The translations under genes were made by a program, and so were the position numbers. The notes under the pieces are model-generated. The model made no database searches and was not told where the DNA came from. It worked only from the letters and a program-made list of their open reading frames with translations. Shown one piece after another: positions 6,055-10,889 of a stretch of 64,000 nt of DNA (its first letter is position 1; every line of letters starts with the position of its first letter). This DNA is from an uncultured Fodinibius sp. (lineage in GTDB: Bacteria; Bacteroidota; Rhodothermia; Balneolales; Balneolaceae): NCBI GenBank assembly GCA_913057775.1, contig CAJXOG010000005.1:62001-126000 (forward strand). Reading direction: 5' to 3'.

Positions 6055-7026
6055 TTAACTACCCGCCTTAGCAGTCTTGCCCAGTGGAATCTTATCTACC
6101 GCATCAAGCGCAGGAGTAGGATCTCCCATAATATAGAAATGGATTCCCGGTGCGCCGCCCTCTAACAGTTCGGTGCACTGTTGAGCCGCCCACTCTACGC
6201 CAATTTCTCTCGCATTATCAGGATCGGCTTGCACCTCATCTGATAAGGCTTCCGGTATATTCAGATGGAAAAATTTAGGCAGGAAATTAAGATGGCGTTC
6301 GCGTGTTAAAACCTTCAAACCCGGTACAATCGGACATTCAATACCCGCAGCCCGACATTTTTCAACAAACTGAAAATAGGCATCATTGTTAAAAAACATC
6401 TGCGTAACGATGTAATCCCCGCCAGCATTAACTTTTTCTTTCAGTCGTGCAATATCAAAATCAAGATTGGGTGCTTCAAAATGTTTTTCGGGATACCCTG
6501 CCACCCCCACACAAAAATTCGTCTCGTGGGCATTTACGATATCCTCAAGGTATTCTCCCCGGTTCATATCTTTAACCTGTTTTACCAGATCAATGGCATA
6601 CTTATTATAGGTGCCATTTTTAATGCGGGGAGTAGAATCATCGGTCGAATCTCCACGGATAGCCAGCACATTATCAATTCCAAGAAAATTAAGTTCAATC
6701 AAGGCATCTTCCGTTTCCTCCTTCGTAAATCCTTCGCAAATTAAATGCGGAACCGGATCAACATCATATTTATGCTTGATTGCCGCACAAAGTCCGATTG
6801 TGCCGGGACGCTTTCGCTTGATATGCCGCTTAATGGTTCCATCCGATAGCTCCTCGTAATATGATTCCGCTGCGTGATAGGTCACATCAATAAAAGGCGG
6901 ATTATACTTCATCACCTTGTCCAGCGATTCAAAAACCTTATCCACGGATCCTCCTCTCTTCGGAGGAATAATCTCAAATGAGATTAATGGTTCCGTTGCT
7001 CTACTATAATGTTCAATTACTTTCAT
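6055..7026 (-). CDS. metF: methylenetetrahydrofolate reductase
   Basis: 323 residues, a complete TIM-barrel flavoprotein of the MetF family. It reduces 5,10-methylene-THF to 5-methyl-THF, the methyl donor used by methionine synthase. Visible family motifs are the catalytic-Glu strand SFEIIPPKRGG near the N-terminus, FLGIDNVLAIRGDSTD (the RGD flavin-site block), and GVAGYPEKH followed by QMFFNNDAYFQF. The gene is divergent from metH, so the two consecutive enzymes of the methyl branch share one 167-bp control region. The ATG at 7026 gives a normal N-terminus. Confidence 0.97.
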   Translation of the reverse strand: MKVIEHYSRATEPLISFEIIPPKRGGSVDKVFESLDKVMKYNPPFIDVTYHAAESYYEELSDGTIKRHIKRKRPGTIGLCAAIKHKYDVDPVPHLICEGFTKEETEDALIELNFLGIDNVLAIRGDSTDDSTPRIKNGTYNKYAIDLVKQVKDMNRGEYLEDIVNAHETNFCVGVAGYPEKHFEAPNLDFDIARLKEKVNAGGDYIVTQMFFNNDAYFQFVEKCRAAGIECPIVPGLKVLTRERHLNFLPKFFHLNIPEALSDEVQADPDNAREIGVEWAAQQCTELLEGGAPGIHFYIMGDPTPALDAVDKIPLGKTAKAGS

Positions 7027-7044
7027 TTACTATACTTTTCTTTG

Positions 7045-7052
7045 TACCTTTG
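7045..7052 (+). promoter_or_regulatory. candidate -7 promoter box for metH
   Basis: TACCTTTG fits the Bacteroidota -7 consensus TAnnTTTG. A TTTC about 20 bases upstream (7021-7024) is a one-mismatch candidate for the -33 TTTG. Transcription would then begin near 7058, exactly where the first arm of the leader stem begins. The assignment is inferred from sequence alone. Confidence 0.45.
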
Positions 7053-7057
7053 GGATC

Positions 7058-7148
7058 CAAAAACTTTTCTTCAAGTTACGCGATTTTCGTAGAGAAAATC
7101 TAACAGTGTTTAAGGTAATCACTTCGTAGCTTAGTTGAAAAGTTTTTG
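7058..7148 (+). promoter_or_regulatory. structured metH leader, riboswitch-like three-way junction
   Basis: A perfect 12-bp pairing (CAAAAACTTTTC at 7058-7069 with GAAAAGTTTTTG at 7137-7148) encloses a second 8-bp stem with one GU pair (AAGTTACG at 7073-7080 with CGTAGCTT at 7125-7132). Inside are a 7-bp hairpin, GATTTTC-GTAGA-GAAAATC (7082-7100), and a weak 4-bp hairpin (AGTG 7105-7108 with CACT 7120-7123). Together these make a closed three-way junction ending 45 bases before the metH start. It does not show the core motifs of SAM-I, THF or cobalamin riboswitches that I know. The divergent metF could also use it, since inverted repeats fold on both strands. Confidence 0.5.
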
Positions 7149-7193
7149 TGCAACCACAAGCACCTTATAACTTATTACCTGAAAACTATTTAC

Positions 7194-10100
7194 ATGAAAT
7201 TTGATCAAATTACCGATCTGCTAAAAGATCGCATCTTGATTCTGGATGGCGCCATGGGCACCATGATTCAGAATCACAACCTTTCTGAAGACGACTATCG
7301 CGGCGAACGTTTCAAAGATTTTGACGAGGCTGATCTCAAAGGGAACAATGACCTTTTGAGCCTTACCCAGCCCGATATCATTAAAGATATTCACCGCCAG
7401 TTCCTTTCTGCCGGATCTGATATCATTGAAACGAACACCTTTAACAGTACTTCCATTTCGCAGGCTGACTATCACATGGAAGACCTGGCTTACGAGCTCA
7501 ATGTGGCCGCCGCTCAAAATGCCCGAGAAGTCGCCGATGAGTTTACGGATAAAAATCCTGATAAGCCCCGCTTCGTGGCCGGTGCCATTGGTCCCACGAA
7601 TAAAACACTATCACTTTCACCGGATGTGGAAGACCCCGGATACCGTGCTATCACTTTTGATGAACTTAAAGAAGCGTATGCCGAACAAATTCGGGGATTG
7701 GTTGACGGCGGAGCAGATATCCTGCTTGTGGAAACCATTTTTGATACGCTCAACGCCAAAGCCGCTATTTATGCTATCCATAAATATGTGGAAGAAACGA
7801 GCAACGAAATTCCCGTCATGATTTCTGGGACTATTGTTGATCAGAGCGGGCGTACGCTCTCGGGTCAAACGACCGAAGCATTCTGGATTTCTGTATCTCA
7901 TACAAAAAACTTACTGAGTGTAGGACTGAACTGTTCGTTAGGATCCAAGGAAATGCGTCCCTACATCGAGGAATTAGCCAATATTTCGGATTGTCACACG
8001 AGTCTCTACCCTAATGCAGGGCTGCCTGACGAAATGGGTGATTACAACGAGACGCCTGAGTTTATGGCTGATCAGCTTCGTGACTATGCCGAATCGAATT
8101 TTGTGAATCTCGTAGGCGGCTGCTGTGGAACAACTCCCGAACATATTGAAGCTATTGCAGAAGCTGCCAAAGAATGCGAACCCCGCCAAATTCCCGACCA
8201 AAAACCGTATTTGCGTCTCAGTGGACTTGAGCCGCTGGTGGTTCGACCCGATACTAATTTTGTAAATATCGGCGAACGCACTAACGTAATGGGATCACGG
8301 AAATTCAAGCGGCTCATCAAAAATGAAGAGTACGAAGAAGCCCTCTCAGTTGCACGTCAACAGGTAGAAAATGGCGCCCAGATCATTGACATCAACATGG
8401 ATGAGGGCATGCTCGAATCTAAAGAGGTGATGGTGGACTTTCTACAGCTCATTGCCGCCGAACCGGATATTTCGCGTGTACCCATCATGATCGATTCCTC
8501 CAAATGGTCGGTCCTCAAAGCGGGCCTGAAAGCCGCCCAGGGAAAATGTGTCGTGAACTCTATTTCACTTAAAGAAGGGGAAGAAGAGTTCAAGGAACAC
8601 GCACAAGAAATCCTCAATTTTGGGGGTGCTGTTGTTGTCATGGGTTTCGATGAAAAGGGGCAGGCCGACAGCTACGAGCGACGTATCGAAATTGCCGAGC
8701 GAGCCTACAACATCCTTACCGAGGAGGTTGGCTTTGAACCTCAGGATATTATCTTGGATCCCAATATCTTGACGGTAGCCACCGGCATCGAGGAGCACAA
8801 TAATTATGGCGTTGACTTTATCAAAGCTACCGAATGGATTAAAGAGAACCTTCCACTTGCAAAAGTAAGTGGCGGTCTCAGCAATATTTCTTTCTCTTTC
8901 CGTGGCAATAATAAAGTCCGTGAGGCCATGCATTCGGTGTTTCTATATCATGCTATCCAAGCGGGACTCGATATGGCCATCGTCAATGCCGGTCAGCTTG
9001 AAATCTATGAAGAGATTCCCGAGAAACTGCGCGAACTTGTCGAGGATGTTATCCTAAATCGACGGGATGACGCCACTGAACGATTGGTAGATTATGCTGA
9101 AAATATCAAGGATGATAAGACCGAAACAAAGCAGAAAACACAGGAATGGCGTACCAAATCCGTCGAAAAACGGATAGAGCACGCACTGGTAAAGGGCATT
9201 GTTGATCATATTGTAGATGATGTGGAGGAAGCTCGACAAAAATATGAACAGCCTATTCATGTAATTGAGGGTCCGATGATGTCCGGAATGGATGTAGTCG
9301 GAGATCTTTTTGGGTCGGGTAAGATGTTTCTCCCGCAGGTGGTAAAAAGCGCCCGGGTTATGAAAAAAGGCGTGGCCCATCTCATTCCCTATATCGAGGA
9401 AGAAAAAGAGAAGAATCAAAACAGCGAGCCCAAAGCCAAAGTATTGCTGGCAACTGTTAAAGGTGATGTCCACGACATCGGCAAAAATATCGTTTCGGTG
9501 GTATTGCGCTGTAATAATTTTGACGTGATCGATCTCGGCGTGATGGTCCCGGCTGATAAAATCCTGGAAGAGGCCCGTAAAAATAATGTAGATATTATTG
9601 GGTTGAGCGGTCTCATTACGCCCTCATTGGATGAAATGGTGCATGTAGCCAAGGAATTGAAGCGTGAAAACTTCAAGCAACCATTAATGATTGGGGGAGC
9701 TACAACCTCCAGAACACATACTGCGGTTAAAATTGAGCCAAATTACGATCAACCTGTAGTACACGTATTGGATGCTTCACGATCCGTTTCGGTCACGGGT
9801 AATCTGGTATCCAAAACACTGCATGATGAATTCGTTAAGAAAATTAAAAATGACTACGTGAAGCTACGCGAGCGTCATGAGGGACGTTCCAGCCGAAAGA
9901 CCTATTTGCCGATTGAAGAAGCCCGTGACAATGCCACACAGATCGATTGGGAATCATCCGAGATTATAAAACCGAATCACCTGGGTACCCAAGAATTTGA
10001 TAATTATCCATTGCAGGAAATCCGGAAATATATTGACTGGGGACCATTTTTTATTGCCTGGCAGATGAAGGGTAAGTTTCCGGATATTCTGGAAGATGAA

Positions 10101-10889
10101 AAGTACGGCGAAGAGGCACGAAAATTATATAATGATGCCAACGAACTGCTGGATAAAATTATTGATCAAAAACTACTGAAGGCCCGTGCAGTTTTAGGAT
10201 TGTATCCGGCCAACTCGGTAGGCGATGATGTGGAACTGTATACCGATGACAATCGCGAAGAAGTGCTCAAGACTTTTCATATGCTGCGTCAGCAAGCCAA
10301 GAAACGAGAGGGCCAGCCAAACAAGGCACTTTCTGATTTTGTGGCACCCAAGGAATCGGGCATCAAGGATTACATGGGCGGCTTTGCGGTAACCTGCGGC
10401 ATTGGTGCTCCCGAGCTGGTCAAGCAGTTCGAAGATAATCACGATGATTACAACGCTATTCTTACCAAAGCACTGGCCGACCGGCTGGCAGAGGCTTTTA
10501 CCGAGCTACTGCACGAAAAAGTTCGCAAAAAAATATGGGGATATGCGCCGAATGAAAGCTATAGCAATGAATCGCTGATCCGCGAGCAATATGATGGTAT
10601 TCGTCCCGCTCCGGGCTATCCGGCCCAACCCGATCATACCGAAAAGCGTATTCTGTTTGATCTGCTAAATGTAGAAGATACCACGGGCATCACCCTAACG
10701 GAATCGTTTGCCATGCATCCGGCCGCGTCGGTTAGCGGGTTATATTTTGCTCATCCAGAATCGGATTACTTTAACGTGGGCGATTTTGAAAAAGATCAAA
10801 TTAAAGATTATGCCAAACGTAAAGATATGAGCGTCAAAGAAGTTGAGCGTTGGTTGGGCCCCAACTTAAATTACGATCCCGGCGAATAA
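7194..10889 (+). CDS. metH: cobalamin-dependent methionine synthase
   Basis: 1231 residues, a full-length four-module enzyme that transfers the methyl group of 5-methyl-THF through cob(I)alamin to homocysteine. In order: the homocysteine-binding barrel ([11 protein letters not shown]; zinc cysteines in VGLNCSLG and [11 protein letters not shown]), the pterin-binding barrel ([16 protein letters not shown]), the cobalamin cap and B12 domain ([10 protein letters not shown] near residue 757, with the cobalt-ligating His), and the SAM-dependent reactivation domain ending in the [14 protein letters not shown] and SGLYFAHP blocks. The ATG at 7194 is preferred to an upstream in-frame TTG at 7146, which would lie partly in the leader stem. 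It stands alone and is divergent from metF. Confidence 0.98.

Follow-up and report, generated by a model that had tools for sequence, protein, structure and literature searches.

A conserved structured RNA in the metH leader of Fodinibius and two neighbouring genera, a candidate riboswitch-like class

The methionine synthase gene metH of Fodinibius and of two neighbouring genera appears to be preceded by a regulatory RNA, a proposal that comparison of the homologous sequences supports well. The element is described from a window of 64,000 nucleotides of an uncultured Fodinibius sp. (assembly GCA_913057775.1, contig CAJXOG010000005.1), in which position 1 is the first letter of the stretch. It is best described as a conserved structured RNA in the metH 5' leader, transcription of the leader being suggested by a promoter box just ahead of it. 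The reading favoured here, with modest confidence, is that of a riboswitch-like leader that controls translation and belongs to a new and narrow class, in which a pseudoknot lies over the metH start region. Belief and doubt are evenly balanced on the proposition that the leader forms a new riboswitch class of these three genera, with a methionine-cycle or corrinoid ligand and a junction-loop pseudoknot, that replaces SAM-I at metH. An earlier note, made from the letters of the window, had proposed a regulatory RNA before metH, and this proposal is strengthened by conservation among relatives, compensatory changes in one helix and the lack of any Rfam match.

Architecture of the leader

The leader element occupies the gap between metF on the minus strand and metH on the plus strand (7027-7193), with ATG 7194 as the metH start codon (Table 1). 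The region 7045-7200 has a folding energy of -33.5 kcal/mol, compared with -22.9 +/- 3.3 kcal/mol in 200 dinucleotide shuffles (z -3.2), one of which folds at least as well. Its centroid fold holds the 12-bp stem at 7058, the 8-bp inner stem and the 7-bp hairpin of the earlier note (P1, P2 and P3), together with a weak 4-bp hairpin. P1 is long and A-T rich; it comprises 12 bp in the centroid and 11 bp in the minimum-energy fold, which gives G7148 to the next hairpin. The closed three-way junction that had been drawn from these parts stands only in part. Its stems are present, but its weak third arm is not common to all relatives, and the drawing misses the hairpin P4 as well as a probable pseudoknot.

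The promoter element that had been placed before the stem is retained, with TACCTTTG in the window and TTGTANCTT in all 14 homologues, 4-6 nt ahead of P1. The box TACCTTTG is presumably a -7 box of the Bacteroidota type, the consensus of which is TAnnTTTG.

The start of metF and the -7 box of metH are separated by only 18 bases. Because of this spacing, the promoter of metF is probably located within the leader of metH on the opposite strand, in which case the metF transcript would be antisense to the leader RNA. No clear promoter box for metF is seen by eye within 7027-7193.

Table 1. Features of the metF-metH region in window coordinates
Feature	Position	Strand	Basis and remarks
metF, methylenetetrahydrofolate reductase, divergent neighbour	6055..7026	-	Pfam PF02219 (MTHFR) over cut-off; NCBIfam TIGR00676 just under cut-off
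-7 promoter box TACCTTTG, putative	7045..7052	+	5 nt before P1
P1 5' strand, pairs with 7137-7148	7058..7069	+	fold, alignment
P2 5' strand, pairs with 7125-7132	7073..7080	+	alignment, tree-based null
P3, variable hairpin, 7082-7088/7094-7100	7082..7100	+	alignment, tree-based null
Weak 4-bp hairpin, 7105-7108/7120-7123, loop bears pseudoknot arm 1	7105..7123	+	centroid fold
Probable pseudoknot arm 1, AGGTAAT, within near-invariant AAGGTAATCAC	7113..7119	+	complementarity
P2 3' strand	7125..7132	+	alignment, tree-based null
P1 3' strand	7137..7148	+	fold, alignment
P4 hairpin, GTGC-AACCACAA-GCAC, G7148 common to P1	7148..7163	+	conserved in alignment
Probable pseudoknot arm 2, ATTACCT	7174..7180	+	complementarity to arm 1
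metH, cobalamin-dependent methionine synthase, presumed regulated gene	7194..10889	+	Pfam, NCBIfam TIGR02082 and NF007024, over cut-off

Distribution among relatives

Conservation beyond the source genome, on which the earlier note had made its reading depend, extends to 14 genomes of three genera with the leader upstream of metH, including all 12 genomes examined of Fodinibius/Aliifodinibius, a genus delimited from named records. A DNA search of 58 relatives recovers the leader in 12/12 genus genomes and in a second genus of the family at E 2.5e-7 or better, rows weaker than this being chance-sized. The covariance model R1, consisting of 13 sequences, added a third genus (genome G021). With 14 sequences, the model R2 matches 14 of the 244 genomes of the class at E 0.05, with one match in each and none in the rest of the 244. 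The next gene downstream is metH at all 14 loci (the 13 and L044).

A sample of 394 genomes of the phylum gives nine R2 matches, all within the same 14; scans of more than 40 genomes were run with stricter filters, which weak relatives may escape. Sixty metH upstream regions from 59 genomes of the order, drawn from 94 metH places that lack the element, contain no convincing match (best E 1.4 with R1 and 7.5 with R2); in L047 and L070, tblastn failed to locate the metH start. An exact-pattern scan of a collection of 84,980 species revealed nine stretches, five of which belong to Fodinibius/Aliifodinibius; divergent relatives would escape such a scan, as the pattern requires exact conserved letters. 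The other four stretches (L108 from Chryseolinea, L109, L111 and L112) lack a model match at E 10 or below and are regarded as chance hits. R1 also matches the minus strand of L037 (E 0.0046), which is read as the palindromic P1 taken backwards and is kept out of the alignment by a stricter threshold. Similar weak matches to the opposite strand occur elsewhere, at E 0.05 to 2.

Conservation and covariation of the helices

The evidence base for the structure consists of 14 sequences from three genera at one gene. Two alignments were used: A2, a plain MAFFT alignment of 13 sequences that omits L044, and A4, which contains all 14 (and not the minus-strand match in L037) and whose counts lean towards structure because it is fitted to the covariance model. 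In A2, 91.4% of the 479 cells of the proposed pairs are standard, a share that falls to 35.6-51.3% after displacement of the partner by 1-3 columns. Two-sided changes are present at six pairs, four in P2, two in P1 and none in P3. Unaided, RNAalifold predicts P1 and P2 with six pairs that show two-sided changes, and it does not predict P3 or P4. A per-pair covariation test in the manner of R-scape, underpowered for this set, detects 0/38 pairs in A2 and 2/31 in A4 at E 0.05.

A helix-level test, devised after the per-pair test had been run, compares the observed pairing with a tree-based null in which the changes of each column are moved independently (own script). P2 is the best supported helix, owing to its six inner pairs. 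These are paired in 74/78 cells of A2, a level that the null reaches in 7/6000 trials, and in 80/84 cells of A4 (0/6000). Five of the six vary between relatives, while the two outer pairs of P2 are not kept in every relative. The 11 inner pairs of P1 are paired in 131/141 cells of A2, with the null reaching this level in 47/2000 trials on A2 and in 7/6000 on A4. P3 is paired in 68/81 cells (7/6000), with one-sided changes only. Support for P1 and P3 thus appears weaker than for P2, and the compensatory changes that the earlier note proposed to look for are found in P2 and, in two-sided form, are missing from P3.

The outer three pairs of P4 are paired in 38/39 cells and hardly vary. Here the null reaches the observed pairing in 1202/2000 trials, as it does in 1240/2000 for the pseudoknot and 1245/2000 for the weak hairpin. 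The test is uninformative for these three, as they hardly vary, and the case for P4 and the pseudoknot consists of invariance and complementarity. The weak hairpin is paired in 47/52 cells and shows no covariation. While it belongs to the centroid fold, as had been proposed, both its outer and its inner pair are lost in L012 and L013, and by eye it is shifted in L044.

The P4 loop is itself exchanged in two relatives, L010 and L011 (genomes G011 and G008). There, by eye, a longer stem-loop of other sequence and similar shape takes its place, GGGT...ACCC in one and GAGCC...GGCTC in the other.

The strand on which the element acts bears on the view that its inverted repeats form a DNA operator shared by metF and metH rather than an RNA. 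The location between two divergent genes suits an operator, as does the metF promoter that presumably overlaps the leader. Over P1-P4 in A4, however, the metH strand gives 33 G-U cells against 8 A-C cells and is therefore probably the functional one. The two arms of P1 lie 67 bases apart and those of P2 44 bases apart, and with such distances and with inner P2 pairs that vary between relatives, a DNA site is hardly allowed. The operator view is accordingly given very little credence.

Conservation is not confined to the paired stems. In total, 39 positions are invariant in 14/14 sequences, with 11 in P1-P3, 6 in P4 and 22 elsewhere, the last mostly in the junction loop, in the ACCT 3' of P4 and in ATTACC. 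P4 and the two pseudoknot arms are among the most conserved parts of the element. A stable 5' structure that merely protects the mRNA or holds translation at a constant low level, in response to no signal, would account for a long, A-T rich P1 at the expected 5' end of the transcript. It would not account for the 28 of the 39 invariant positions that lie outside P1-P3, and P2 varies freely while its pairing holds. Such a passive role is considered improbable.

A probable pseudoknot before the start codon

The conserved loop and the bases ahead of the start codon are complementary to each other. AGGTAAT and ATTACCT form standard pairs in 88/91 cells (13 sequences). Shuffling of the conserved columns seldom yields a comparable helix: one of five pairs kept by 14/14 sequences is matched in 4/5000 shuffles, one of six pairs kept by 13/14 in 1/5000, one of six pairs kept by 12/14 in 15/5000 and one of seven pairs kept by 11/14 in 25/5000. 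Covariation cannot prove the pairing, as the arms are nearly invariant. A pseudoknot that links the junction loop to the region before the start codon is nevertheless probable.

In L012, L013 and L044, the outer A-U pair is lost and a C-G pair is gained on the other side, so that GGTAATC/GATTACC retains 7 bp. L012 and L013 also have an A in place of the G with which this C would pair in the weak hairpin, a pattern that may indicate that the knot prevails over that hairpin.

The distance from the end of ATTACC to the metH start codon is 14 nt in the window and 5-17 nt in 13/14 genomes. The exception is L008 of genome G007 (L039 in A4), in which 192 nt intervene. L008 is changed at two of the 41 positions invariant in the other 13 sequences, one in a knot arm and one in P4. 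These changes are suggestive only, as more distant members of the set also vary at positions otherwise invariant (3/42 in L041, 2/41 in L042, 1/40 in L043 and 9/48 in L044). The long gap was also considered as a repeated element, and this was rejected; 186 of its bases occur once in G007 and are absent from G000, G002 and G009.

A second segment, GYACCU adjoining P4, can also pair with arm 1. Its duplex energies range from -5.2 to -8.7 kcal/mol, compared with -6.6 to -10.1 kcal/mol for the far arm, and it is the stronger partner in 5/14 sequences (L036-L040). One may speculate that this segment is the other half of a switch, or the far pairing could be one of more than one. A leader peptide, in which the metH frame would reach into the leader from a TTG (7146), was rejected, as the spacing to the ATG differs among relatives by non-multiples of three.

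Other riboswitches and metH leaders in relatives

The position taken by the new RNA is occupied by a known riboswitch elsewhere in the family. Twenty-two genomes of the family carry a SAM-I riboswitch on the metH strand, 48-140 nt upstream of the metH match, and an Rfam scan of 39 distinct metH upstream regions (40 entries, with L049 given twice) finds SAM-I in 11. In the 22 SAM-I genomes the metH frame is short (336-381 aa), as would be expected of a split gene. The 14 genomes that carry the new RNA do not overlap with these 22, and all have a single SAM-I riboswitch at another place; the copy in the genome of the window precedes genes for O-acetylhomoserine sulfhydrylase and MetX.

The presence of SAM-I at the same place in relatives favours a metabolite switch, and this bears on a rival in which a protein is the effector. 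In that account, the leader is a cis-regulatory RNA whose pseudoknot is stabilised by MetH, by another enzyme of the methionine cycle or by an RNA-binding repressor, and the RNA binds no metabolite. A narrow distribution at a single gene is as compatible with autoregulatory leaders as with rare riboswitches, so the one match per genome before metH in 14/244 genomes is in keeping with it, and the conserved unpaired bases could be read by a protein. A simple protein site usually needs fewer than 39 invariant positions, however, and the 22 relatives with SAM-I at metH also argue against a protein effector. Some weight is left to this account, although it seems unlikely.

Cobalamin riboswitches (RF00174) are present in 12/12 genus genomes, and in G003 one precedes metE. 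The C-terminal domain of MetE (PF01717) is detected in 7/12 genus genomes and was not found in the other five, among them the genome of the window, G002 and G010; the new RNA occurs in both groups. The cobalamin riboswitches at L115 and L116 (G002 and G010) precede a gene that best resembles a ribonucleotide reductase beta chain, with scores below the curated cut-offs.

These data bear on the idea that the leader senses B12 (methylcobalamin) and switches metH on in the presence of the cofactor, as a mirror of the metE-off cobalamin riboswitches of the genus. The requirement of MetH for B12 speaks for it, together with the presence of cobalamin riboswitches in 12/12 genus genomes and the copy before metE in G003. 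Against it, the leader lacks an RF00174 match in genomes that have RF00174 elsewhere, and the RNA is kept in the five genomes in which PF01717 was not found, that of the window included. A B12 sensor is rated as distinctly unlikely. In the genomes with the new RNA, riboswitches of the ordinary SAM-I and cobalamin classes are thus used by other genes, and metH carries a leader of its own. As both riboswitches occur elsewhere in the same genomes, there is no prior need for a second sensor of SAM or B12.

A different conserved leader is seen about 100 bases before metH in L045 and L046 (G125 and G124), from the same order and another family. Its sequence, GAGCCAATTCACC...GGTGCGC...TTTGGCA.GATTGGCATG, has an outer pairing of GCCAAT with ATTGGC and looks structured. 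It has no Rfam match up to E 0.5 and is possibly another undescribed metH leader RNA.

Proposed mechanism and significance

Control of translation is the simplest mode of action for the favoured riboswitch-like leader, because a conserved loop is complementary to the stretch before the start codon and no terminator is evident by eye. The metH mRNA would probably start about five bases after the -7 box, and roughly its first 125 bases would constitute the element. P1, P2 and P3 are predicted to form a long arm, with a junction loop that bears AAGGUAAUCAC, followed by P4. AUUACCU would then pair back to AGGUAAU, and the resulting pseudoknot would end 5-17 bases upstream of the start codon. With the knot closed, the region of ribosome entry would be covered and no MetH made; with the knot open, MetH would be produced. 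The knot may be stabilised by a small molecule of the methionine or one-carbon cycle, for which SAM and SAH are first guesses.

If this description is true, the leader adds a compact new RNA fold that senses a metabolite or a protein. The family also offers a natural comparison, with metH placed after SAM-I in 22 genomes, after the new RNA in 14 and after neither in the other genomes examined. The origin and replacement of riboswitch classes thereby becomes a testable question.

Comparison with known RNA classes

The metH leader is outside every Rfam class tested. No family, including RF00162 and RF00174, reaches its gathering score anywhere in the window, consistent with the statement of the earlier note that no SAM, THF or cobalamin motif could be recognised. 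A search of the 311 bases at 6950-7260 with Rfam 15 up to E 10 gives eight matches, all under the cut-off. The three on the metH strand are to SNORD20, mir-1329 and PhotoRC-I, none of them a SAM, SAH or THF class, and a SAM_V match (E 9, far under the cut-off) lies on the strand opposite metH. No description of the element was found in the literature searched, whose coverage omits most subscription papers, preprints and supplements, and no paper in it joins Fodinibius or Aliifodinibius with a riboswitch.

Among the known systems, the SAM-I riboswitch (S box, RF00162) resembles the new leader in place, as it precedes metH, a methionine-cycle gene, in 22 genomes of the family. SAM-I is a four-way junction with its own core letters, and its model has no match to the metH leader up to E 10. 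SAH riboswitches are located upstream of genes of the methionine cycle in other phyla, metH among them; the metH leader differs from them in having no match up to E 10. The cobalamin riboswitch (RF00174) is found in the same genomes, with the copy before metE in G003 as the nearest likeness, but does not match at the metH leader. The pfl RNA is reported to be located sometimes upstream of one-carbon genes, with metH as an example (PMC2864571). The metH leader again differs, with no match to it up to E 10.

If the knot forms as proposed, the likeness in outline would be to the SAM-II riboswitches, including SAM-II with long loops (RF01726), and to SAM-V (RF01826), which are pseudoknots that control translation. 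Switches of the SAM-II type control translation through the pairing of a hairpin loop with a 3' tail beside the start codon. PMC6061858 describes SAM-V as a pseudoknot type of translation control by the start codon. The SAM-II and SAM-V models have no plus-strand match in 6950-7260 up to E 10. In contrast to these folds, the metH leader adds the helices P2, P3 and P4 and carries other conserved letters.
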